In this document: one piece after another, positions 465-38,962 of the stretch
Position numbering within the stretch: position 1 is the stretch's first letter
How the letters are laid out: every line of letters begins with the position of its first letter
DNA from: Clostridia bacterium
GTDB lineage: Bacteria; Bacillota; Clostridia; Oscillospirales; CAG-272
Length of the DNA: 39,540 nt
Reading direction: 5' to 3'
Assembly (NCBI GenBank): GCA_017461635.1
Contig: JAFTXK010000082.1
Span: 1-39,540, forward strand
Translations under genes and position numbers: made by a program
The notes under the pieces: model-generated
Seen by the model: only the letters and a program-made list of their open reading frames with translations
Database searches by the model: none
What the model was told of the DNA's origin: nothing

Positions 465-3155
465 TCAATATGAAATATTTTTTGAGCCGAAGATCCGCAG
501 AAGGAGCTTTCTTATAAAGTCTACCGGGAAGACAAGAAGGGCAAGGATAAGAGTTGCGGTCAACTCTTCATAGGATAGCGGCACTGTTCTCAGCACGCTT
601 CCGCCGAGATATACAAAGGCGATCTGTATCACCGCGATCAGAAGCATTATAAATATGAAGACCTTATTTTTGCCCAGCCCATGGAAAAGGCTGAGGCTAT
701 CGGTTCTCGCCGAGAAGCAATTGAAGACCGAGGCGAAAATGAAGAGGGCAAAAAATGCCGTCAGCAGATACAGATTTTCTTTATCATATTGGAAAAGGCT
801 CGTTATGGCAGGCATCTTCAGAAAAGCAATGCAAAGAGCAACGGTAAAGAGCCCCATGGTAAGTATCTCGCCGATCATATAGCGGTTAAGTATCGATTCA
901 TCGCGCTTTTTCGGTCTCTCCTTCATATATTCCTCGCCCGCATGCTCGCCTGCAAAGGCGATACCGCCGAGAGTATCCATGATGATATTTATCCACAGCA
1001 TCTGAACGACGGTTACGGGGGCATCAAAGCCGATAAAGGGTCCTATCATCGAAACGCCTACGGCGCAAAGATTCATAGTGAGCTGAAGGGTTATGAATTT
1101 TCTGATATTCTTAAAAATACCGCGCCCGTACAGAACAGCTTTGGCGATCGAGGCGAGATTATTATCGAGGATTATTATATCTCCCGCGTCCTTTGCCACC
1201 TGCGTCCCGCTCCCCATAGCAAAGCCGATATCGGCTCGGCGCAGTGCGGGCGCGTCATTTATTCCGTCGCCCGTCATGCCCACTACAAGATCTGCCTCCT
1301 GCGCCACTCGCACAAGTCTGCTCTTATCCGAGGGCAGAGCCCTGGCGACAACGCCTATCCGCGGAAGCAGCTCTCGGAGCTTTACATCGCCGATCTTTGC
1401 AAGATCCGAGCTTGTTATGCAAATATCAACATCGCCGCCGAGAATACCGCTTTCCCGCGCTATGCTTGCCGCCGTTTCGATATTATCTCCCGTCACCATT
1501 ACAACATGTATACCCGCACTGCGAAGCCGCTCCACCGAAGAAGCGGCTTCCTTTCTCACCCTATCAGAAAGATGAACCGCGCCGATCAAGGTCAAATTCA
1601 TGGAATACGGAGGCATTCTATCGCTTACGGCAAGGAGGATAACTCTGCCTCCTACGCTCGTTCTTTCGCTTATCATCCGTTCAAAGCGTACGGAATTAAA
1701 AGGCGCAGTGCTTCCGTCCGGCCGCAGATAGGAGCGCACGAAGGGTAAAAGCTTTTCGGGCGCTCCCTTTATAAGCACAGTTTTCTCCGAGCCCTCGAGC
1801 CTGACTGCGGAGAATTTTTTTGCGCTGTCAAAGGGTATCTTTTCAGCGATCCTTATTCCCGAAAATTCGGAGGAATACTGCGCCGCACTCTCGGTAAGAG
1901 CAATATCGGTCATATTTCCTCCGAGGGCATGGGCTTTGCCGTCTTTGGCTATACTAACCTCGGAAGAAGTATTATACAAAGCGGAAAGGGCAAAATATCT
2001 CCAAATGCTGTCCTTTTTCCTGCCCCCGATACTATTTATCACCGAGCCGTCGCCGAGCAAATATTCCTTGACGCTCAGATGCCCCTCGGTAAGAGTTCCC
2101 GTTTTATCGGTGAAAAGAATATTCATGCTTCCCGCCGCCTCGATGCCAACGGGTTTTCTCACCAGCACCTTATCCCGTACCATTTTTTTGATATTTGCCG
2201 AAAGCACGACAGAGATCATCAGCGGAAGACCTTCTGGAACCGCTACAACAACGACCGTGAGCCCCAGGGTGAAGGCATGAAGCAATTTTCGAAAGAGATA
2301 ACCGACATCTCCCAGCTTCATGAAGATGATAGTGGGATGCATGCCGCTGTCGATAATGAAGCTGTTGATAAGATATGCCACCGTCACCAGCACAGCGGCG
2401 ATATAACCGAGACGGCTTATGACGGATGCCAGCTTTGCGAGACGGATGCGTAAAGGGCTTTCTCTCGTATCCATCTGCACCTCGCGCGATATTCCGCCCA
2501 GAAAGGTAGCATCTCCAACCACAGCCACTCTGGCTTCACCCTCGCCCGATGTTATGACGCAGCCTCCGAGCAGTGCATGCGACTGGGAAGGATCAAGCGG
2601 AATATTATTTTTGCTCTGTTCAGGTGACATCGGCTCTTTGCGTACTTCTTTATTCTCGCCCGTCATCGCTGATTGGTCAACTCCAAGCGAGCCCGATAGC
2701 AAAATGCAGTCGGCAGGTATCTTTTCGCCTGCACCGAGCAATATAATATCCCCCACGACCAGCTCCCGCGGATCTATCTCGCGCACAGAGCCGCCTCTGC
2801 GCACTCGGCATCTCTGCATTTTATTTTCCTCACCCAAACGGCGGAATGCTGCCTCACTGCTGTATTCCGACATGGTAGAAATAAATGTTGCAAGAAATAC
2901 CGATATGCCGATGCCGACCGTCTCATATATATCACCGCCGCGGATCAGGAAAAGTATATTGAGCAGAAGGGCAAAAAGCAATATCCTTATAACGGGATCA
3001 TTCAGATTTGAAAGAAACTGACGCAAAAAAGAGCGTCTCTTTGCCGCGCTCAGTTTATTTTCACCATATTTTTCGCGAGAGGAAATGACCTCGGCATCGC
3101 TCAGCCCTCTGAGATCTTTTCCCGAGCCCCTTAAGTGCGTTTTTTCATGTACCAT
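465..3155 (-). CDS. Calcium-translocating P-type ATPase, PMCA type
   Basis: An 896-residue P2-type ATPase of full family length, expected in the cell membrane exporting Ca2+ at the cost of ATP. In order: a cation-ATPase N-terminal domain (residues 10-70), first membrane pair (about 55-95), actuator domain with the TGE motif in MTGEN (165-168, where many relatives have TGES), third and fourth membrane segments (about 250-320) with the ion-binding VPEGLPL (306-312), the phosphorylation motif DKTGTLT (Asp350), then the nucleotide domain, TGDN and the hinge TGDGINDAP, and a C-terminal six-helix region. AVPEGLPL is typical of PMCA and bacterial Ca2+ pumps; Mn2+ cannot be excluded. A GGAGG ribosome binding site lies just before the ATG. 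It stands alone, convergent with the amidase fragment and divergent from the Sel1 gene. Confidence 0.9.
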   Translation of the reverse strand: MVHEKTHLRGSGKDLRGLSDAEVISSREKYGENKLSAAKRRSFLRQFLSNLNDPVIRILLFALLLNILFLIRGGDIYETVGIGISVFLATFISTMSEYSSEAAFRRLGEENKMQRCRVRRGGSVREIDPRELVVGDIILLGAGEKIPADCILLSGSLGVDQSAMTGENKEVRKEPMSPEQSKNNIPLDPSQSHALLGGCVITSGEGEARVAVVGDATFLGGISREVQMDTRESPLRIRLAKLASVISRLGYIAAVLVTVAYLINSFIIDSGMHPTIIFMKLGDVGYLFRKLLHAFTLGLTVVVVAVPEGLPLMISVVLSANIKKMVRDKVLVRKPVGIEAAGSMNILFTDKTGTLTEGHLSVKEYLLGDGSVINSIGGRKKDSIWRYFALSALYNTSSEVSIAKDGKAHALGGNMTDIALTESAAQYSSEFSGIRIAEKIPFDSAKKFSAVRLEGSEKTVLIKGAPEKLLPFVRSYLRPDGSTAPFNSVRFERMISERTSVGGRVILLAVSDRMPPYSMNLTLIGAVHLSDRVRKEAASSVERLRSAGIHVVMVTGDNIETAASIARESGILGGDVDICITSSDLAKIGDVKLRELLPRIGVVARALPSDKSRLVRVAQEADLVVGMTGDGINDAPALRRADIGFAMGSGTQVAKDAGDIIILDNNLASIAKAVLYGRGIFKNIRKFITLQLTMNLCAVGVSMIGPFIGFDAPVTVVQMLWINIIMDTLGGIAFAGEHAGEEYMKERPKKRDESILNRYMIGEILTMGLFTVALCIAFLKMPAITSLFQYDKENLYLLTAFFALFIFASVFNCFSARTDSLSLFHGLGKNKVFIFIMLLIAVIQIAFVYLGGSVLRTVPLSYEELTATLILALLVFPVDFIRKLLLRIFGSKNISY

Positions 3156-3231
3156 ATAATTCCTCCGTCCTTTTTTATATATAATATGAAGAGGACGGAC
3201 TGAAAAATTACTTCCCCGAAGCTTTATCGCC

Positions 3232-3260
3232 TTGACAGTGGATGGATATTGTGATAAAAT
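3232..3260 (+). promoter_or_regulatory. Putative sigma-A promoter of the Sel1 gene
   Basis: TTGACA at 3232-3237 and TAAAAT at 3255-3260 are separated by 17 bases. The next gene on this strand starts at 3589, so the transcript would run through the whole miniature element at 3303-3517. This suggests the element inserted into a leader. Confidence 0.5.
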
Positions 3261-3302
3261 ATTTAATAATAGAACACCTCTGAAAACTCAAAATTTAATA
3301 AC

Positions 3303-3517
3303 TAAACAATAATTTGTCGAGGAAAAGTAACTAACATTTTATGAGATCCTTCGCCGAGGCTCAGGATGACAGTACTGTACTGTTCGCAATGTTTCCTACG
3401 TTAAATCACAGTTGACTTAACAGTAGGAAACCAAGTGGGCGATCCCTTATTGTTATCCTGAGCCTCGGCGAAGGATCTCACAAGATATCAACTAACTATT
3501 CGACAAGTTATTGTTTA
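3303..3517. mobile_element. Miniature inverted-repeat element (MITE), 215 bp copy
   Basis: The two ends are imperfect inverted repeats: TAAACAATAATTTGTCGA at 3303-3320 against its complement at 3500-3517 with one mismatch. Further in, the segment around GAGATCCTTCGCCGAGG (from about 3342) recurs inverted at about 3457-3480. There is also a nested inverted repeat around GTTTCCTAC / GTAGGAAAC (about 3391 and 3422). No coding potential is seen. The outermost TA at each end could be a TA target duplication, as left by IS630/Tc1-type transposases. A shorter relative sits at 15453-15553. No transposase is in the window, so it would be non-autonomous. Confidence 0.75.
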
Positions 3518-3588
3518 ACCTATGTTTTGATTTTTTAAGTTACAATAATTAACAAATAAAAAATCCCCATCAAAGGAAAACTGAAATA

Positions 3589-4317
3589 ATGAACGATCTG
3601 ATTTCGGCAAATGCTCTTTTTGCAAAGGGTGAATATGAAAAGGCGGCTGAGCTTTACCGCGAGCTCGCTTGGAAGGGTGACCTTGACGCAATGTTCAATA
3701 TGGGTTATCTGCACCAATTCGGCATCGGAGTACCGCTTGATCTCGAAAAGGCGGCGGATTTTTATGCTGTTGCGGTCTATCTCGAGGGCGGAGACGCCGC
3801 ATATAATCTTGCAGTGATGACAATGAACGGGCTCGGCGTCAAGCGCGATATCGCAAAGGCTGTCCACTATATGGAGCTGAGCGCAAACGGCGGCTGTCCA
3901 GAGGCTCAGCTTTATCTTGCTTCGGCATGCTCCATGGGCTATGCGGGAAATCCGATAACGAGCAATATCTGCCGGATCCCTTTCCATAAAGCCGAGAACA
4001 GATATGATTATGCCGTTATCGGCGGCGGTATAGACGAAGCGGAGCAGGAAAAAATAGAGGAAGAAAGATGCCGCGCCATAACCGAGAGCCATATAGACGC
4101 CTATCGCTGGCTTTCCATAGTTGCTGCTTGCCGGGATGAGGACGACGTTTACGGCGAAACGATCAGAGATGCGAAATTCCTTCTCGGTCTCTTCCACATA
4201 GAGGGTATCGGCTGCCGCATAAACCGCAAGAAGGGTCAGCGGCTCATCAAGGAAGCCGCCCTTGCAGGCTCTGCCGAGGCACAGCAATATCTGCTCCAAG
4301 GCGCAGAGGATCGGTAA
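3589..4317 (+). CDS. Sel1-like repeat (TPR-type) protein
   Basis: A 242-residue soluble protein built of Sel1-like helical repeats. The pattern A...Y..A...G...A..nlG.l...G.GV..D..KA is seen from residue 10, 46 and 82 (for example GIGVPLDLEKAADFY and GLGVKRDIAKAVHYM), with a last unit at the C-terminus (GIGCRINRKKGQRLIKEAA). Between them is a less regular segment of about 90 residues (roughly 105-200) rich in Glu/Lys. Such proteins act as protein-protein adaptors, and the partner cannot be read from the sequence. No signal peptide is seen. ATG at 3589 is preceded by AAAGGA. It starts a same-strand run with the tautomerase (22 bases later) and biotin ligase. Confidence 0.8.
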   Translation: MNDLISANALFAKGEYEKAAELYRELAWKGDLDAMFNMGYLHQFGIGVPLDLEKAADFYAVAVYLEGGDAAYNLAVMTMNGLGVKRDIAKAVHYMELSANGGCPEAQLYLASACSMGYAGNPITSNICRIPFHKAENRYDYAVIGGGIDEAEQEKIEEERCRAITESHIDAYRWLSIVAACRDEDDVYGETIRDAKFLLGLFHIEGIGCRINRKKGQRLIKEAALAGSAEAQQYLLQGAEDR

Positions 4318-6836: not shown

Positions 6837-6839
6837 CCT

Positions 6840-6916
6840 TGGTGGGGCATCAGGGACTCGAACCCCGGACCGACCGGTTATGAGCCGGTAGCTCTAACCA
6901 ACTGAGCTAATGCCCC
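6840..6916 (-). tRNA. tRNA with CAT anticodon (Met elongator most likely; Ile2 possible)
   Basis: The minus strand folds as a full cloverleaf: acceptor stem GGGGCAT/ATGCCCC, D arm GCTCAGTTGGTTAGAGC, anticodon stem ACCGG/CCGGT with loop CTCATAA, T arm CCGGGGTTCGAGTCCCTG, discriminator A and an encoded CCA. The anticodon is CAT. The acceptor stem starts with a G-C pair and so is not initiator-like. Elongator tRNA-Met and the lysidine-modified tRNA-Ile cannot be separated with certainty by eye. It has its own promoter (6939-6967) and terminator (6802-6836). Confidence 0.95.
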
Positions 6917-6938
6917 GTATTTATTTTTGACAAAAGAT

Positions 6939-6967
6939 ATTATACAACAACCGCGGCGATTTGTCAA
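6939..6967 (-). promoter_or_regulatory. Promoter of the CAT-anticodon tRNA
   Basis: Minus-strand TTGACA (complement of 6962-6967) and TATAAT (complement of 6939-6944), 17 bases apart: a perfect consensus match, as expected for a stable RNA. Confidence 0.9.
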
Positions 6968-7019
6968 GAGTTATTTTGGAATTATTTAAAAAACATTTAT
7001 AAATCCTACAGAAAGGGAA

Positions 7020-7052
7020 AACCGATAATATGGGGAATCCCATATTATCGGT
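7020..7052 (-). terminator. Terminator of the HD-phosphohydrolase cassette
   Basis: A perfect 13-bp stem, CCGATAATATGGG (7022-7034) and CCCATATTATCGG (7039-7051), with a four-base loop. On the minus strand it is followed by TTTTCCCTTT and lies 24 bases after the stop of the small gene. Confidence 0.8.
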
Positions 7053-7075
7053 AGTACTATTAAATTTGGAGGCAA

Positions 7076-7300
7076 TCATACTGTAGTACAGTATACACCC
7101 ACTTTTTGGCGAACCAACCCTTCATTAATTAAAGTATCAATTTTTACTTGAATTGTTTGTCTTGATACCTGTGCATCGTAATTTCTAATTTCGTCAAGAA
7201 GATGATCGGTAGTAAAGCAATAATTGCTTTTTGCAAACAATAAATTGTAAATAATAAAATCGATGTTTTGATTATCTTTCTCTAAAATTACTTTGCACAT
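7076..7300 (-). CDS. Small winged-helix-like protein, second gene of the HD cassette
   Basis: 74 residues, no family recognised with confidence. Predicted features: helices around residues 12-25, 31-40 and 45-62 (with the phrase SRQTIQVKIDTLINEGLV, typical of a recognition helix leading into a wing), then a short beta hairpin GLVRQKVGVYCTTV at the end. This is the shape of a small winged helix-turn-helix domain. Its ATG lies inside the end of the HD gene (13-base overlap), with GGAGAG placed at a suitable distance, so the two are translationally coupled. It could be a regulator of the cassette or a subunit of the enzyme. Base use is AT-rich like its partner and unlike the flanks. A hairpin terminator follows. 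Confidence 0.6.
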   Translation of the reverse strand: MCKVILEKDNQNIDFIIYNLLFAKSNYCFTTDHLLDEIRNYDAQVSRQTIQVKIDTLINEGLVRQKVGVYCTTV

Positions 7301-9297
7301 TTGGCACTCTCCATCTCTAATTTAGTTTTTGATAAAAGATTAATGATATGTTTCGCGAAATCAGAGGCAATCTTTTTGCCTATTTCTTGTAATAAGATTT
7401 TTCGCTCCTCGTCATCAAATTTTACAGTGCTCTTTAATAATAAGTATACGTAAAACACAGGAAGACTTTCAGCTTCAATTGTCATAATATCACATATTTC
7501 TGAATTCTCGTAGAGAGTGGAAATAGTACTGTCATGAGGAGTATAAAAATATATTGGTTTTTCCAATCCGGACGAAAGACGCTTTAATACGATCATTATA
7601 TCACACAAATCCGAATTTGTAAAGTGTAAATTTATAGTTTCATTGACTTTTTCTTTAAAAAATTCATCCATATTCGATATTTCAGTAGAAAAAGCTCCTG
7701 CATTTTTCAAGACGTATCTTAAAGCGAGTGAATAATCACTGTTAGGAAAATCTACTAAATATTTAATTTTATCAAAAGTTGGCTCTATATTGATAATTTT
7801 ATCTAAAGGTGTAGTATCCGGAATACTCTTTGATAATGTTTGGATTTCTTGTATTAGAGCAATTATTTTGTCTTTATTACTATGCAATACCTTTTTGAAT
7901 TCATTATCTATTGTAATAAAGTTGTCCCTTCGCTTTATAAGGGAAGAGTATTTTTTTGTATTGCATAGCAATTCAGTCAATTGTTGAGCCAAAACATATT
8001 CAGAAGATGTTTCATCGATTTCCGTCTGATAATATTTGGAATAATACTCTTGTTTTAATACGGTCATCAACCAAGAATCATTCCACTGTGACAGAGCGTT
8101 TTCTTTTTCAGTAGGAGTACTATTGCCTTCCAAAGGATACCATAATCCACTAATATCATAAGGTATCACGTTATCGGAATCTTTTTTACAAGCACTATTT
8201 TCACCAAGGAAATTATCAATTATTTTTTCTACAGAATACTGAAGGAGGGAGTCAGTTTTTATTACACGATGATGATATATTATATTCTTATATATTGATA
8301 AACGTCTCTTGGCAAAATCTTCAACAGAATTAACAGCTTTTTGCGGGACACAAAAATAAAAATTTTTGTTTTCTGTTTGCAATCTCATGTCATTGATAAT
8401 TCGCTGATATTCTATTTTCCCAGAATCCATACCAGAGTTAAGAGAATCTCTTGTTACATAGTCCAATCTATCAGAATCCAACGCACCATCAACAAGTGTG
8501 TGTAAATTTTCAAATAATTTTTCATTCTTTAAAATTCTCAAAACACAATTGGCTATAATGAGTTCATACAAATTTTTATGGTATCTTTTTACGTCATATT
8601 GCTCATTAGACATTCCATATACAACTTTATCTAAAATATTCTTGCATATTTCGTCCCCCATTTCTTCATGCAATTTTTTTCCTTCTTCAAAAAATTTTTT
8701 CATTGTTTCACAAAAAATTTTTGTTCGAGAATTGCAATCTGGATTTTGAGAATGCTTTTTATATTGGTTATGTATAGCATTCTCAACAATGTGGCTAAAA
8801 GGAGGATGACCTACATCATGTAATAAGGCTGTTACTCTAATAGATTCAATTAGAATACAATGAATAATTATATGATCTTTTGGAACATTGCTAGGAACTA
8901 ATGAATATCTCATATGATCCATTGTTATTTTTAACTCGGAAATATTTGTAATTTTGGGACTTTTTCCTCCCAATTTAATTTCACAAATACTCGAATTTGC
9001 TTTGATGGATTCTACAACCTCGATAATTTTATTTTCAAAACTTTCATAGAAATCTTTAAGAACCTCATCAGAGGTGTTTAAAATAGAACGATAAAACATA
9101 TCAGATGCTATTTTCATGGTTCCCAAAGAATGCTCAAAGCGTTTTGTTCTATTGGAAGGAAAAGTTAAATACACCGTAGAATTTTGATATACATCATGTA
9201 ATCTATTGAACCCTATACTAGATATAATTCTTTTTTCATATTCAGACAATTGAATTAAACCGTGGATTGAATCATTTATATAAATACCTTTAGACAT
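7288..9297 (-). CDS. HD-domain phosphohydrolase (SAMHD1/dGTPase-like)
   Basis: A 669-residue protein with the metal-binding residues of the dNTP triphosphohydrolase branch of the HD superfamily: His56 in RFEHSLGT, His160-Asp161 in LLHDVGHPPFSH, and the Asp pair in LDSDRLDYVTRD (274/276). SAMHD1 has the same three blocks. The C-terminal half (about 330-669) shows no domain I recognise and makes the protein longer than simple HD hydrolases. The first ATG of the open frame is at 9357, but AAGGG lies ten bases before the ATG at 9297, which also gives MSKGIYINDSIHG, the usual start of the family. The likely reaction is hydrolysis of dNTPs or a related nucleotide, unproven. The gene is markedly AT-rich, has its own consensus promoter and overlaps the small gene downstream. 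Confidence 0.82.
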   Translation of the reverse strand: MSKGIYINDSIHGLIQLSEYEKRIISSIGFNRLHDVYQNSTVYLTFPSNRTKRFEHSLGTMKIASDMFYRSILNTSDEVLKDFYESFENKIIEVVESIKANSSICEIKLGGKSPKITNISELKITMDHMRYSLVPSNVPKDHIIIHCILIESIRVTALLHDVGHPPFSHIVENAIHNQYKKHSQNPDCNSRTKIFCETMKKFFEEGKKLHEEMGDEICKNILDKVVYGMSNEQYDVKRYHKNLYELIIANCVLRILKNEKLFENLHTLVDGALDSDRLDYVTRDSLNSGMDSGKIEYQRIINDMRLQTENKNFYFCVPQKAVNSVEDFAKRRLSIYKNIIYHHRVIKTDSLLQYSVEKIIDNFLGENSACKKDSDNVIPYDISGLWYPLEGNSTPTEKENALSQWNDSWLMTVLKQEYYSKYYQTEIDETSSEYVLAQQLTELLCNTKKYSSLIKRRDNFITIDNEFKKVLHSNKDKIIALIQEIQTLSKSIPDTTPLDKIINIEPTFDKIKYLVDFPNSDYSLALRYVLKNAGAFSTEISNMDEFFKEKVNETINLHFTNSDLCDIMIVLKRLSSGLEKPIYFYTPHDSTISTLYENSEICDIMTIEAESLPVFYVYLLLKSTVKFDDEERKILLQEIGKKIASDFAKHIINLLSKTKLEMESAKCAK

Positions 9298-9328
9298 TGC
9301 CCGACATCCCTTCATTATATTTATAGTC

Positions 9329-9357
9329 ATTATAACACAATATGTAAATAATGTCAA
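9329..9357 (-). promoter_or_regulatory. Promoter of the HD cassette
   Basis: Minus-strand TTGACA (complement of 9352-9357) and TATAAT (complement of 9329-9334) with 17 bases between. The start of transcription would be near 9322, about 25 bases before the ATG at 9297, which excludes the upstream ATG at 9357. Confidence 0.85.
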
Positions 9358-9483
9358 TAAAAATGGGTTTTTTGTCGAATATATATAGTATTGAATTCAT
9401 TAAAAAGTGTACGGCAAATGGGTATCTGACGCTTTTTTGGTTAATAATGATAATATGATAAACAAAATAACAAGGAGAACAAA

Positions 9484-10197
9484 ATGTCGGAAAACGAAAA
9501 CAAAACAAATGAAAATGAGAATGAAAACGAAAAAAAGCCCGGCATCGGCGATGATTTTGAAGGTATAATCAAAAGCGGCAGTGTCGTTGCAAAAAATTCA
9601 CGGGAAACTATCCATTGCCTGAGTATCATCGGTCAGATAGAAGGTCATTATCTGCTTGGCGAGAGCCAGAAGGCTACAAAATACGAGCATGTGATCCCTT
9701 TGCTGGTTGCAATTGAGGAGAGCGAGGACCTTGACGGGCTTCTCATCGTCCTCAACACCATGGGCGGCGACGTTGAAGCAGGTCTTGCCATTGCAGAGAT
9801 GATCGCTTCCATGTCGAAACCTACCGTTTCGATCGTGCTCGGCGGAGGTCATTCAATCGGCGTGCCTCTTGCAGTGGCAGCAAAAAAATCCTTCATAGTT
9901 CCTTCGGCAACAATGACTATCCATCCCGTCCGCATCAATGGGCTCGTTCTCGGTGTTCCTCAGACCTTCAGATACTTTGAAAACATGCAGAAGAGGATAA
10001 TCGATTTTATCACTTCACATTCGAATGCAAGCGCGGATAAGCTGCAGGAGCTGATGATGCGTCCCGACGAGATCGCAACCGATGTCGGTTCTATCGTTGA
10101 TGGGAATGAAGCCGTCAACATCGGAATTATTGATAAAGTAGGAGGTCTTTCGGACGCTCTGGCAGAGCTAAGAGAAATGATTAAGAATAATTCTTAA
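9484..10197 (+). CDS. tepA: ClpP-family serine protease, TepA type
   Basis: A 237-residue ClpP-like peptidase of the translocation-enhancing-protein group. After a low-complexity Asn/Glu N-terminus (residues 2-18) come the ClpP core features: [11 protein letters not shown] (90-100), the nucleophile Ser124 in GGGHSIGV (120-127), His147 in MTIHPV, a likely third residue near Asp200, and [13 protein letters not shown] (209-221), matching ClpP's EAVEYGLVD. TepA-type proteins are cytoplasmic and have been linked to protein export and spore-forming Firmicutes; they often sit next to spoIIIE, which is not the case here. ATG follows CAAGGAG. It is divergent from the HD cassette and same-strand with the PerR-like gene. 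Confidence 0.85.
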
Positions 10198-10214
10198 AAA
10201 ATTTCAAAAAACTA

Positions 10215-10242
10215 TTGACAAATCAAAATTATATGTTATAAT
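10215..10242 (+). promoter_or_regulatory. Promoter of the perR-like gene
   Basis: TTGACA at 10215-10220 and TATAAT at 10237-10242, spacing 16. It lies directly after the tepA stop and just upstream of the operator-like palindrome. Confidence 0.85.
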
Positions 10243-10252
10243 AATATCAGAG

Positions 10253-10269
10253 TTAAGAACTATTCCTAA
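10253..10269. promoter_or_regulatory. Per/Fur-box-like operator
   Basis: TTAAGAACTATTCCTAA is an imperfect 17-base palindrome (12 positions symmetric) with the TTA-GAA...TTC-TAA layout of Per and Fur boxes. It begins about 11 bases after the -10 element, so a bound repressor would block initiation or early elongation. The simplest reading is autoregulation of the perR-like gene together with rubrerythrin. Confidence 0.6.
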
Positions 10270-10284
10270 AAAGTGAGGTCTGAT

Positions 10285-10653
10285 ATGACTAAACAACGCA
10301 AGCTTATACTCGATATTATCAATAGGTCAAGATCGCATCCAAATGCCGAAGAGATCTATCATGAGGCGAAGTCGGTCATGCCCACAATTGCCCTCGGTAC
10401 GATCTACCGCAATCTCGGTATCATGGTTAAGGAAGGCGAGATAAGACGTCTTGTCAGCGAGAATGCTCCCGACAGATATGATAGGATCGCGCCTCTGCAT
10501 GACCACATGGTGTGCACCGAATGCGGCAGAATTACCGATACGGATATCGGTTCGCTCTGGGACGCCATTGAAAATTGCGTCGGGGAAAAGATCGTCGGCT
10601 ATGAGCTGATGGTCAGACATGTTTGTAATTGCTGTAAAAGCGAACAAAAATAA
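10285..10653 (+). CDS. Fur-family regulator, PerR-like
   Basis: 122 residues from the ATG at 10285, which has TGAGG at the right distance; an in-frame GTG at 10273 overlaps that ribosome binding site and is less likely. The N-terminal winged helix (HPNAEEIYHEAK, then ALGTIYRNLGIM) is followed by the metal-binding C-terminal domain. His18 matches the oxidation-sensitive His37 of PerR, LHDHMVC (71-77) carries the regulatory-site histidines, and CTEC (77-80) with CNCC (114-117) gives the structural zinc site. It lacks the longer first helix of B. subtilis PerR. The neighbouring rubrerythrin gene and the operator support a peroxide-stress role. PerR is more likely than Fur or Zur, but not proven. 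Confidence 0.85.
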   Translation: MTKQRKLILDIINRSRSHPNAEEIYHEAKSVMPTIALGTIYRNLGIMVKEGEIRRLVSENAPDRYDRIAPLHDHMVCTECGRITDTDIGSLWDAIENCVGEKIVGYELMVRHVCNCCKSEQK

Positions 10654-34627: not shown

Positions 34628-36040
34628 ATGTTCACATTAGATGACATCAGAGAGATCTGGAAAAGCGTTAAAAATGATTTTGAAACCGATTTTAATATTG
34701 CACCGTCTACCGCCGATCTTTGGTTTGGCGATCTAACTGTCGATTCTGTTGAAGACGGAAAAATAACTCTTGCCAGTGCTTCCGAATATAAAACTAAATT
34801 TATTAAAAATAAATATATGGGTATGATTGCCGAAGGCTTTGAAAATCACCTCGGTATAAGACCCGAAATCGAAGTATACTTCCCCGGAGATAAAAAAACA
34901 GAAGAAAACACTGAAACTGAAAATAAAGAAACACCCGAAGAAATAAAAAAAGAAAATCCCGAAAAGAAGATACCAAAATCAACCATGCTTCCGACCGTTA
35001 ATTTTGAATATACCTTTGATAACTTCATCGAAGGAAGCTCAAATACCTTTGCAAGAGCTGCTTGCTGGGCTGTTGCTAAGAATGTTGTTGAAGCTGAAGA
35101 GGGTAATACGGCTTCTCAGTATAATCCTCTTTTCCTTTACGGTCCCAGCGGTATAGGTAAGACCCATCTTATGTATGCAATTACAAATAAGATCAGAAGC
35201 GAAAAGCCTAATGCAACCATCATGTACATAAAGGGTGAGGACTTTACTAATCAGCTTATCGACAGCCTTGCCGTTCAGGGAATGGCTCAGTTCCGCGAAA
35301 AATACCGCCAGTGCGACATTCTCATGATCGATGATATTCAATTCATCGGAAGTAAGGTTGCAACACAGGAAGAGTTTTTTCACACTTTCAACGCACTTTA
35401 CGAAAATGAGAAGCAGATAATAATGACTTCAGACCGTTCTCCGAGAGAGATACCAGATCTTGAAAAACGTCTCGTAGGAAGATTTGAGATGGGTCTGCTT
35501 GCAGATATACAGCCTCCCGATCTCGAGCTTCGCATCGCTATAATCAAGAAAAAGGCGGAACAGGGAAATATTACTATTCCGGATGATGTACTTACCTTCC
35601 TTGCGGAAAATCTGAGATCAAATATCAGACAGATAGAAGGGGCTATAAAGAAGATCAGCGCCCTCAGCTTCCTTTCGGGCAAAAATATAACGATAGATCT
35701 TGCAAAAAGCCTGCTCCATGAGCTTCTCGGAGGAGCCGAGCCCGTAAGTGTTACGGTAGATAAGATATTCCTTTCTATCTACAAAAAATACGGCTTTACA
35801 AAGGAAGAGCTTACAGGCGCAAGAAGAACAAAGGAGCTTGCTCTTGCAAGGCACATTACTATATATTTGATACGTCAGATAACGGAAATGTCACTTCCAA
35901 ATATCGGCAAGATATTTAACAGAGACCATTCAACCGTAATGTCCTCTATCGATATCATCGAAAAGAAGATAAATACAGACAATATGCTTTCCATCGAGAT
36001 ATCCGAGCTAATCAAGGAAATAGAAACAGGAAACATATAA
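34628..36040 (+). CDS. dnaA: Chromosomal replication initiator protein DnaA
   Basis: A 470-residue DnaA that binds its boxes at oriC and opens the origin. Domain I spans about 1-85, followed by a low-complexity acidic linker (domain II, about 88-118, rich in Glu/Lys/Thr). The AAA+ domain starts at YTFDNFIEGSSN and carries Walker A GPSGIGKT (172-179) and Walker B ILMIDDIQFIG. Domain IV (about 375-470) holds the DnaA signature in GKIFNRDHSTVMSSI. GAAAGGGAG precedes the ATG. A weak AT-rich terminator (AAACAAAT/ATTTGTTT) follows at 36041-36063. Confidence 0.98.
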   Translation: MFTLDDIREIWKSVKNDFETDFNIAPSTADLWFGDLTVDSVEDGKITLASASEYKTKFIKNKYMGMIAEGFENHLGIRPEIEVYFPGDKKTEENTETENKETPEEIKKENPEKKIPKSTMLPTVNFEYTFDNFIEGSSNTFARAACWAVAKNVVEAEEGNTASQYNPLFLYGPSGIGKTHLMYAITNKIRSEKPNATIMYIKGEDFTNQLIDSLAVQGMAQFREKYRQCDILMIDDIQFIGSKVATQEEFFHTFNALYENEKQIIMTSDRSPREIPDLEKRLVGRFEMGLLADIQPPDLELRIAIIKKKAEQGNITIPDDVLTFLAENLRSNIRQIEGAIKKISALSFLSGKNITIDLAKSLLHELLGGAEPVSVTVDKIFLSIYKKYGFTKEELTGARRTKELALARHITIYLIRQITEMSLPNIGKIFNRDHSTVMSSIDIIEKKINTDNMLSIEISELIKEIETGNI

Positions 36041-36063
36041 AAACAAATTATTATTTGTTTTTT
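36041..36063 (+). terminator. Terminator after dnaA
   Basis: AAACAAAT (36041-36048) and ATTTGTTT (36053-36060) with a TATT loop and following TTTC, immediately after the dnaA stop. The stem is AT-rich, so termination may be partial. Confidence 0.55.
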
Positions 36064-36668
36064 CTCTCAAGATCGAAAAACTATGATATCAACAATCTTT
36101 CCTTATGAAATACATAATATTTTCAACATCTTATCAAAATTAATCAACAGTTTGAACATTTTGTTTTACCACATATTAAAAAACTGTTGAGATTAATTTG
36201 AAAACTCTTAAAATTCCAATAATTTCATAGGTTTTATTTTTCCACAGACAAAATATTAATTTTTTTTAAAAAACTTTTTTCAACAGACTTTTCAACATCA
36301 AAATAAAAAATTTCCACAAAATCCACATATTTTTAAACATCAAAAATTTCCACATATAACCGATTTTTTATCCTCTTTGACCAAAAGAAATGTTTAAAAT
36401 CAAGATCTCATACTTTTCCACATTCAACAAGTAACTTTTCTCTTACAAACAAACATATTTCCGAACATAAAAATTTAATCGGAAATTATCATGTTTTTTG
36501 ATAAAACTCATATAATTCAAAGCATTTGGAATTGAAAAAATCAACGAAATAGGAATTTCCACATTTTCCACAGTACCTAATAATATCATTACTTTTCTAT
36601 TCTTTCTATTCATGCTGTTCTTTCTATCGCATGCGCAAAAATTCATCTAAAGAAGGAGAAATAATAAA
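36064..36668 (+). other. Replication origin oriC
   Basis: The 600-base AT-rich gap between dnaA and dnaN is crowded with DnaA-box-like 9-mers, all in one orientation. TTTTCCACA occurs at 36238, 36414 and 36564; ATTTCCACA at 36310, 36346 and 36555; AAATCCACA at 36319; TTTACCACA at 36165. Related TTTTCAACA copies are at 36120, 36277 and 36289. Two boxes are directly adjacent (36555-36572), followed by an A/T stretch and a pyrimidine-rich region with three TCTTTCTAT-like 9-mers (about 36592-36629) before dnaN. No reverse-orientation box (TGTGGA) was seen. The location and boxes match oriC of Firmicutes, where the unwinding element lies on the dnaN side. Confidence 0.9.
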
Positions 36669-37820
36669 ATGAAAATAATTTTTTACAGATCTAAAGCGGC
36701 AAGCGCTATCGCTCCGCTTATGGCAACTGCCGTAAACCGTTCAACTCTCGCGGCTGTAGAGGGTATACTTATCGAAGCAAAAGCTCCGGATACAGTCATC
36801 CTTACCACCTATGATCTCGAAAAAGGTATGAGGACTACGGTCGAAGCCGAGGTTATTGAAGAAGGATATTTTGTTGTTAACGCTCAAAAATTCAATCAGG
36901 CACTCCATGTTATGGACAGCGATAAGATAACTCTCACAGTTGATGAAAAATTCAGAGCTACCATTACCAGCGGAAGAGCTAATATCAGTATGAATGCCCT
37001 TGACGGCGAGGATTTTCCCGCTGTTCCTTCTCTTAAGAGCGAAATGGGATTCTTTATACATCAGTCGGTCCTTCGCAAGATGCTTCTTAAAACTACCTAT
37101 GCTATGGGTACGGTCGATCAGAGACAGGTACTTAACGGATGCTTCGTTCATGTTGAAGATGATTCTATCATAATAGTTGCCTGCGATGGCTTCAAGCTGG
37201 CTACCTGCCGCAGAAAGGCTGATATTAAAAAGGGTAATGAAGAGGACAGATATATCAGTTATTCCTTTATATTGCCTGTAAAGACTGTTGCAGAGGTAAA
37301 TAAGCTTCTTTCTGATGATGAGGATGCCATAACAAGGATCTACCTTATGAGAAAGCATATAGTTTTTGAGATAGGTAATATCATATTCTTCTCCAGACTT
37401 ATAGAGGGAGAATACGTTGACTATGAACGCCTTATTATTTCAACTCATAAGATAACACTTGAAGCAGATAAGGACGAGCTTATGTCTGCTCTTGAGCGTG
37501 CGGCACTTATAACCGAAGAAAAGATAGCCGGAAGCGTTCGCTCTCATGTTAAGCTGAATGTTACAAATGAATATCTTGAGGTGTCTGCAAATTCCACAAA
37601 CGGCAGCTCTTATGATGAGGTCAAGATCGATCATACAGGTGAAGATGTAGTTATTGCATTCAATAACAGATATCTAATGGATTCGATCCGTTCCTGCGAT
37701 ACCGAGAAGGTCAGATTCTCTATCTCATCTCCCCTGACAGGAATGAATATCGAGCCTGTCGGCGAGGACGAGGGTGTTGAAGAGCTCTATATGCTCCAGC
37801 CCATAAGAATGAAGGACTAA
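36669..37820 (+). CDS. dnaN: DNA polymerase III beta subunit (sliding clamp)
   Basis: A 383-residue sliding clamp that tethers DNA polymerase III to DNA. The three-fold repeated clamp fold is present, with the first-domain phrase LAAVEGILIEA (about 27-37), the second-domain DQRQVLNGCFVHVEDDSIIIVACDGFKLA (about 152-180) and a C-terminal region GEDVVIAFNNRYLMDSIRS and a final MLQPIRMKD, where most clamps end in LMPMR. Slightly longer than typical (about 365-370) because of short insertions and a negatively charged stretch near the end. AAGGAG precedes the ATG. recF follows 32 bases later. Confidence 0.97.
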   Translation: MKIIFYRSKAASAIAPLMATAVNRSTLAAVEGILIEAKAPDTVILTTYDLEKGMRTTVEAEVIEEGYFVVNAQKFNQALHVMDSDKITLTVDEKFRATITSGRANISMNALDGEDFPAVPSLKSEMGFFIHQSVLRKMLLKTTYAMGTVDQRQVLNGCFVHVEDDSIIIVACDGFKLATCRRKADIKKGNEEDRYISYSFILPVKTVAEVNKLLSDDEDAITRIYLMRKHIVFEIGNIIFFSRLIEGEYVDYERLIISTHKITLEADKDELMSALERAALITEEKIAGSVRSHVKLNVTNEYLEVSANSTNGSSYDEVKIDHTGEDVVIAFNNRYLMDSIRSCDTEKVRFSISSPLTGMNIEPVGEDEGVEELYMLQPIRMKD

Positions 37821-37852
37821 AATAATTTACCGCCGAAATCGAGGTTTTTTCT

Positions 37853-38962
37853 ATGATCTGCAACTATATAAAACTGAAAAATTACAGAAATATAGAAGAA
37901 GCCGAGGTGTTTTTTGAAAACGGTGTGAATGTCCTTATTGGAGATAATGCTCAGGGAAAGACGAATCTTCTTGAAGGGATCTATACCTTCGCTCTCGGAA
38001 AAAGCTTCAGAGGAGCAAAGGAAGCGGATGTTATAAAATTCGGAGAGAATGAATCTTTGAGCATGATCGGATTTACAACAAATTCGAGAAGTGATATTCA
38101 GACGCTTAAAATAAGACTTCGCAAGGGCAGCCGCCGTCAGATAGAAATGAACGGTGTAAGGCTTGAAAGGCTTTCGGAGATGATAGGCTCATTCAGAGCA
38201 GTGCTTTTTTGCCCCGAGCATCTTTCTCTAATAAAAGAAGGACCTTCCATGAGGCGTAATTATCTCGATGTTGCCATATCTCAGTTCAGACCTGTTTATT
38301 TACGGTCTCTGCAGCGTTATCATGCGATACTTGAGCAGAGAAATAAGCTGATAAAGAATGCCGAGGATGATAGAGTGACCCTTGATGCTACGATAGGTCT
38401 TTGGTCTGAGCAGCTTGCTCATGAAGCGGCGGTCATAGCTAATTTTCGTTCAAAATATGTGAAAAAAGTCGGCGAAGAGGTTGCAAAATACTTCGAAAAA
38501 ATGACGGGAATGAGCGAGAAGGTAGAGATGCAGTATATAGGCTCTTCAAAACAGACAGAAGAAGAATACGGCGATATAAAGGCGATTGAAAATAGATATC
38601 TTCAGCTATTAACAGAAAATATTGACCGCGAGATCGGTGCTTCTTCAACTCTTTGGGGTATTCACAAGGATGATATAGAGATACTTATAAACGGAAAGAG
38701 TGCAAGAATGTTCGGTTCTCAGGGGCAGCAGAGATCATTGGCTCTTGCCATGAAGCTGGCAGAAGGGGATATATGCTTCTCTGAGACCGGTGACAGACCC
38801 GTTCTTCTGCTTGATGACGTACTGAGCGAGCTTGATGAAAAGAGAAGAAAATTTCTGCTTTCAAATGTCCGTGACAGGCAGGTTATAATAACAACCTGCG
38901 AAAAAACAGATTTTGGAGAAGCAAAAAGAATAAATGTTGAAGGCGGAAAATATTCTGTTTAA
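37853..38962 (+). CDS. recF: DNA replication and repair protein RecF
   Basis: A 369-residue SMC-like ATPase that loads RecA at gaps. Walker A GDNAQGKT is at 30-37 after LKNYRNIEEAEV. The ABC signature region GSQGQQRSLALAMKLAE is near 283-300, and Walker B LLLDDVLSELDEKRR near 320-335. ATG follows GAGG with eight bases between. It lies between dnaN and the RemB-type gene, as in most Firmicutes. Confidence 0.96.
   Translation: MICNYIKLKNYRNIEEAEVFFENGVNVLIGDNAQGKTNLLEGIYTFALGKSFRGAKEADVIKFGENESLSMIGFTTNSRSDIQTLKIRLRKGSRRQIEMNGVRLERLSEMIGSFRAVLFCPEHLSLIKEGPSMRRNYLDVAISQFRPVYLRSLQRYHAILEQRNKLIKNAEDDRVTLDATIGLWSEQLAHEAAVIANFRSKYVKKVGEEVAKYFEKMTGMSEKVEMQYIGSSKQTEEEYGDIKAIENRYLQLLTENIDREIGASSTLWGIHKDDIEILINGKSARMFGSQGQQRSLALAMKLAEGDICFSETGDRPVLLLDDVLSELDEKRRKFLLSNVRDRQVIITTCEKTDFGEAKRINVEGGKYSV

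Follow-up and report, generated by a model that had tools for sequence, protein, structure and literature searches.

A two-gene cassette encoding a SAMHD1-fold HD protein and a small winged-helix partner, a candidate anti-phage module in a Clostridia bacterium

Related nucleotide-depleting systems and the gene pair

SAMHD1 restricts HIV by depleting the dNTP supply, and EF1143 from Enterococcus faecalis is a dGTP-activated dNTPase. How bacterial relatives of SAMHD1 stay safe before infection is the question on which the gene pair described here bears. In SAMHD1, the guanine-specific allosteric site AL1 includes D137, Q142 and R145, and mutation of this site lowers both tetramer formation and activity (PMC7045340). 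Clover is an anti-phage system composed of the dGTPase CloA and the Pol-beta nucleotidyltransferase CloB, which makes p3diT (PMC12265719). It is the only bacterial dNTPase defence we found with a worked-out partner.

The pair lies in a 39,540-nucleotide stretch from a Clostridia bacterium (contig JAFTXK010000082.1), which we refer to as the window; related loci are given L numbers. The features of the cassette and its flanks are as follows.

6840-6916, minus strand: tRNA-Met gene, with its own consensus promoter at 6939-6967; kept in empty sites
6978-9401, no strand: inserted interval, which two congeners lack, their tRNA-Met and clpP-like genes lying side by side
7021-7052, minus strand: intrinsic-terminator-like hairpin, 14-bp perfect stem with a T-rich tail
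7076-7300, minus strand: partner gene, 74 aa, its translation starting within the final part of the HD frame; winged helix by prediction
7288-7300, minus strand: 13-bp overlap of the HD and partner reading frames
7288-9297, minus strand: HD gene, ATG start, 669 aa, Pfam HD 3.6e-6; predicted HD-superfamily (d)NTP triphosphohydrolase of EF1143/SAMHD1 fold
9329-9357, minus strand: cassette promoter, TTGACA-N17-TATAAT with extended -10, 12/12 consensus matches
9484-10197, plus strand: clpP-like serine protease gene, Pfam CLP_protease 9.4e-24, on the other side of the insertion

The pair shares with Clover a two-gene design, in which an HD-superfamily dNTPase is accompanied by a dedicated regulator, and a mobile, defence-island distribution. 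It differs in both components: CloA belongs to the Dgt/SpdGTPase branch, which the window protein matches weakly (32 bits against a cut-off of 152 for the Dgt/CloA-branch model TIGR01353), and CloB is a nucleotidyltransferase, whereas the window partner is a 74-residue winged helix in which no NTase domain was matched. With the single-gene antiviral dGTPase (SpdGTPase; NF041026) the window protein has in common the HD metal site, the HE dyad (H169/E172) and the proposed depletion of nucleotides; SpdGTPase is, however, from the other branch, while the window system has an extra partner gene and a protein longer by about 200 aa. The antiphage dGTPase model NF041026 scored 22.5 bits on the HD protein, against a cut-off of 400, and the PADLOC dGTPase model gave a partial match (1.5e-6). 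EF1143 and SAMHD1 resemble the window protein over the whole-chain fold and in all catalytic residues, the D218 position being E, but differ in that the AL1 residues read S/N/H in the window's subclade, L150 is replaced by N, insertions add about 200 residues, and a winged-helix protein is encoded alongside. AbiE (AbiEi/AbiEii) is likewise a pair of effector and regulator, and its AbiEi N-terminal domain is weakly similar to the small winged helix; here, however, the effector is an HD hydrolase rather than the AbiEii nucleotidyltransferase of a type IV toxin-antitoxin system, and the partner is too short to contain the AbiEi C-terminal domain.

By analogy, the pair would work like Clover and the antiviral dGTPases, yet it belongs to neither. 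PADLOC 2.0 did not call it as a defence system, and a literature search conducted mostly outside subscription journals found no description of an HD plus winged-helix defence system. The pair adds a defence candidate beyond the PADLOC 2.0 calls, and is probably undescribed. A second, unrelated type of partner on the EF1143/SAMHD1 branch, together with a clade-specific change in the activator site, would allow a direct test of control by a protein.

Layout and insertion of the cassette

The arrangement proposed in an earlier sequence-only reading, a 669-residue HD protein and a 74-residue partner overlapping by 13 bases, was confirmed with its coordinates, as were the cassette's own consensus promoter and perfect-stem terminator (14 pairs), the adjoining tRNA gene and the high AT content: G+C is 29.4% in the cassette and 43.9% elsewhere in the window. 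The overlap of the two frames makes translational coupling probable. Just one further promoter in the window scores 12/12, that of tRNA-Met, and five terminator-like sites were seen, compared with 0.8 in shuffles. The HD reading frame can also be read as 689 aa, the extra length starting at a TTG codon that lies inside the promoter.

Comparison with two congeners reveals the site before insertion. Using blastn, window positions 6838-6977 align with 2945-3083 of L091 and 9402-10505 with 3096-4198, leaving a gap between the flanks of 12 bp in L091 and 2,424 bp in the window. The second congener, L090, has the same arrangement, with tRNA-Met and its promoter adjoining the clpP-like gene. Because tRNA-Met directly adjoins the clpP-like gene in both, we identify the 2.4-kb AT-rich cassette as an insertion. 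Its flanks are core genes, and the clpP-like gene was found in all five genomes of the genus. Either the cassette entered the window's lineage or both congeners lost it; entry is favoured because of the low G+C and because the HD gene, and likewise the partner, is missing from the other 294 of the 295 family genomes searched. Together with the clean empty site, these observations uphold the horizontal acquisition that had been proposed. We considered the tRNA as an integration target, and rejected it because the insertion lies upstream of the tRNA-Met promoter and leaves the gene untouched, with its 3' end intact.

Elsewhere in the window, positions 34628-38962 contain dnaA-, dnaN- and recF-like genes and an AT-rich intergenic stretch (about 36040-36670), rich in TTTCCACA-type motifs, which appears as a dip in the G+C profile. 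This region is probably the chromosomal replication origin, which would therefore place the cassette about 27 kb from oriC.

The HD protein and its winged-helix partner

All three HD metal motifs are present in the SAMHD1/dGTPase form, as the sequence-only reading had it, and they make up a complete active site: R53-F-E-H56, H160-D161, H164, H169, E172, H210-E211 and D276. SAMHD1 residues H167, H206, D207, H210, H215, D218, H233 and D311 correspond to H56, H160, D161, H164, H169, E172, H210 and D276 respectively. The metal and catalytic residues are invariant in 14 diverged aligned sequences, wherever the residue is present, and this holds down to relatives of 20% identity.

Pfam identifies only the HD domain in this protein, with no sequence match to the C-terminal half. 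Among solved structures, sequence searches placed 2hek, 2q14, EF1143 and SAMHD1 best, far above Dgt. An AlphaFold2 model, calculated with ten family members as input (pLDDT 84.7, pTM 0.85), matches EF1143 (2o6i) with a Z score of 29.1 over 399 residues (2-640 of the model) and SAMHD1 with 28.6 (model residues 2-647). Because the match, at Z 29, covers the whole chain, the model assigns the C-terminal half as the C-terminal lobe of the EF1143/SAMHD1 fold, with insertions; this half, earlier described as unrecognised, is so by sequence but not by fold. The modelled protein thus belongs to the EF1143/SAMHD1 fold group, except at its activator site, and its fold and residues strongly predict that it hydrolyses (d)NTPs. 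The structure 9mr6, considered as CloA, turned out to be a fungal SAMHD1.

In the window protein D137, Q142 and R145 of AL1 are replaced by S26, N31 and H34, and the guanine-specific site is not conserved. The S/N/H set is nearly constant in the window's subclade (clade A), the sole exception being Y at position 31 in L011, while the other subclade (L003 and L026) keeps the Q and R of AL1. From this replacement we infer that something other than a guanine nucleotide activates the enzyme; the activating nucleotide of this subclade would differ from that of SAMHD1, and perhaps the substrate range would also. SAMHD1 L150 corresponds to N in almost every member, with T in L078 and S in L011. With this pocket residue changed, NTPs may be substrates, and dNTPs are the presumed ones. 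We suggest only tentatively that this is an undescribed defence family of SAMHD1 fold, in which a small winged helix that senses phage DNA or protein, and/or another nucleotide, has taken over control from guanine nucleotides, possibly with an altered choice of substrate (N for L150).

The partner is predicted to fold as H-H-H-E-E, three helices followed by a two-strand wing (pLDDT 84.5), in agreement with its original description as winged-helix-like. The Foldseek matches were all generic winged helices, the best at E 0.06, the nearest folds including, weakly, the winged-helix repressors BlaI and MecI. Pfam, NCBIfam and PHROGs gave no named family, and in PADLOC the AbiEi winged helix was matched weakly by sequence (3.1e-4). 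The partners are acidic in most cases (pI 5.0-6.1) and basic in 3 of 11; because most are acidic, DNA binding is not obvious.

The pair is a conserved unit, as had been suggested. Same-strand genes for proteins of 68-103 aa come after the HD genes of the window, L002, L003, L004, L006, L009, L010, L011, L026, L078, L079, L098 and L099, so that 13 of the 16 assessable clade members have one directly behind the HD gene (L077 and L012, which are cut or truncated, were left out of this count). L007, L008 and L013 have no detectable partner. A profile built from eleven partners finds those of L098 (5.7e-6) and L099 (3.7e-5), both outside the profile. Leave-one-out profiles recovered 8 of the 11 at E<0.01 among 5,766 ORFs, missing L011, L003 and L026; the L003- and L026-type partners had E>10, and their homology is based on position and fold class. 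The HD gene copy of L004 (1054-2739, in G385) may be decayed, its N-terminal part being interrupted by one or two TAA codons in frame; its partner is intact.

Distribution and possible functions

The HD gene is rare wherever we searched. It is carried by 5 of 398 genomes in a phylum sample and 3 of 391 in a class sample, the window's own being counted in each. Around other carriers the figures are 1 of 11 and 1 of 8, the 11 being one carrier's family and all of one genus. A maximum-likelihood tree unites the 17 long HD proteins in a single group supported at 100/100. Their hosts are Bacillota, Bacteroidota and Campylobacterota, with further members on phage contigs, and the cassettes are AT-richer than their flanks at 15 of 16 loci.

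Many of the loci have defence or mobile-element genes nearby, in line with the defence module inferred in the sequence-only reading; this is a locus-by-locus observation, made at these loci alone. The pair in L026 adjoins Gabija (GajA 4.5e-166, GajB 2.5e-130). L100 has a nucleotidyltransferase/HEPN-like pair on one side and AbiEi/AbiEii on the other, HEC-01 (HEC-01A/B) being farther away. L007 is behind a nucleotidyltransferase/substrate-binding pair, L010 is, by inspection, behind two transposase-like genes, and L006, carried by a plasmid of Nitrosophilus, has a DNA methylase and Tni genes in its vicinity. On viral contigs, L077 is downstream of tape measure, tail, holin and amidase genes, L078 comes after lysozyme and holin, and the L079 pair is downstream of a tape-measure gene fragment. 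Several members (the window, L098 and L099) lie among housekeeping genes. A viral scan with the single HD protein gave no match; the members on viral contigs were found with the family alignment, and a further viral scan with alignment A5 added only distant HD proteins. Two outcomes had been named beforehand as counting against a horizontally acquired defence module, namely presence of the pair at the same locus in all close relatives with normal base composition, and failure of the two genes ever to co-occur elsewhere. Both were looked for, and neither was found.

In L079 (3390-17160) the tape-measure gene is seemingly split by two cargo segments, one encoding a protein of 428 aa that matches DUF723, the other the HD/winged-helix pair. 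We considered carriage of this pair by an intron, and rejected it as there was no Rfam intron match.

On balance, we lean towards the pair being a mobile two-gene anti-phage module that depletes nucleotides, its (d)NTPase being under winged-helix and/or non-guanine ligand control. The HD enzyme, a triphosphohydrolase of SAMHD1/EF1143 type, would be kept inactive or low in uninfected cells; upon infection it would hydrolyse (d)NTPs to nucleoside and triphosphate, and the loss of (d)NTPs would halt phage DNA synthesis. The co-translated winged-helix protein would control the enzyme, most likely by binding to it or to nucleic acid, setting its activity or its expression. A role in defence is suggested by the mobility and context of the pair and by the precedents of dGTPase and Clover. 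The function of the partner is similarly conjectural: direct control of the enzyme would fit the translational coupling, the mostly acidic pI and the changed activator site, and repression would fit the strong promoter.

The same promoter can be read differently. A perfect-consensus, strong promoter seems to need restraint, and with a small co-translated partner that resembles, however weakly, the AbiEi winged helix and the BlaI/MecI repressors, the cassette could be a toxin-antitoxin-like addiction system, in which a constitutively harmful (d)NTPase is held by a downstream antitoxin and auto-repressor and serves mainly for maintenance rather than immunity. We consider this unlikely. L007 and L008, two close relatives nested inside the clade in the maximum-likelihood tree, have intact catalytic residues and no detectable partner, which we read as partner loss; the partner is therefore not strictly required, and an obligatory antitoxin is disfavoured. 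No promoter-centred operator-like inverted repeat was seen among the repeats listed (at least 14 nt), and SAMHD1-type enzymes are usually regulated by nucleotides and not by antitoxins. These two HD genes (L007 8001-9914 and L008 8001-9908) are the closest relatives of the window's, at 46-47% identity, and differ little from their flanks in G+C, which sets them apart from most copies.

HD dATPases reshape the nucleotide pool in some phages, and the three members on viral contigs, beside lysis genes or within a tape-measure region, could similarly benefit a phage or prophage, the chromosomal copies being leftovers. Most members, however, are outside phages (on a plasmid, in chromosomes, beside defence systems) with their catalytic residues intact, and the neighbourhood of lysis genes is also a usual site for phage cargo, making this explanation quite improbable. 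A housekeeping enzyme of EF1143 type for dNTP homeostasis, with a dedicated regulator, was earlier regarded as equally open. The fold and catalytic residues do match EF1143, whose role is not defensive to our knowledge, and core genes flank the window's cassette; but nearly all close relatives lack the gene, the insertion is recent and the AT-richness recurs across loci. Carriage as patchy as 1 genome in 11 within one carrier's family makes such a role very improbable.

Beyond the clade, the distant short HD proteins L080, L084, L081, L023 and L051 (400-440 aa) are SAMHD1-like, some of them on viral contigs. The next gene in each encodes a protein, unrelated to the winged-helix partner and about 170-190 aa long, in which a G[RK]TA[LM]MK-like motif recurs, reminiscent of Panacea/SocA-like antitoxins; the 190-aa partners of L080 and L084 had no Pfam match at E<0.01. 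L005 encodes a 686-aa HD protein (247-2307), divergently oriented from a Dgt-like gene (2440-3465), which has a SAMHD1-like N-terminal domain and a different C-terminal half, and falls outside the clade.
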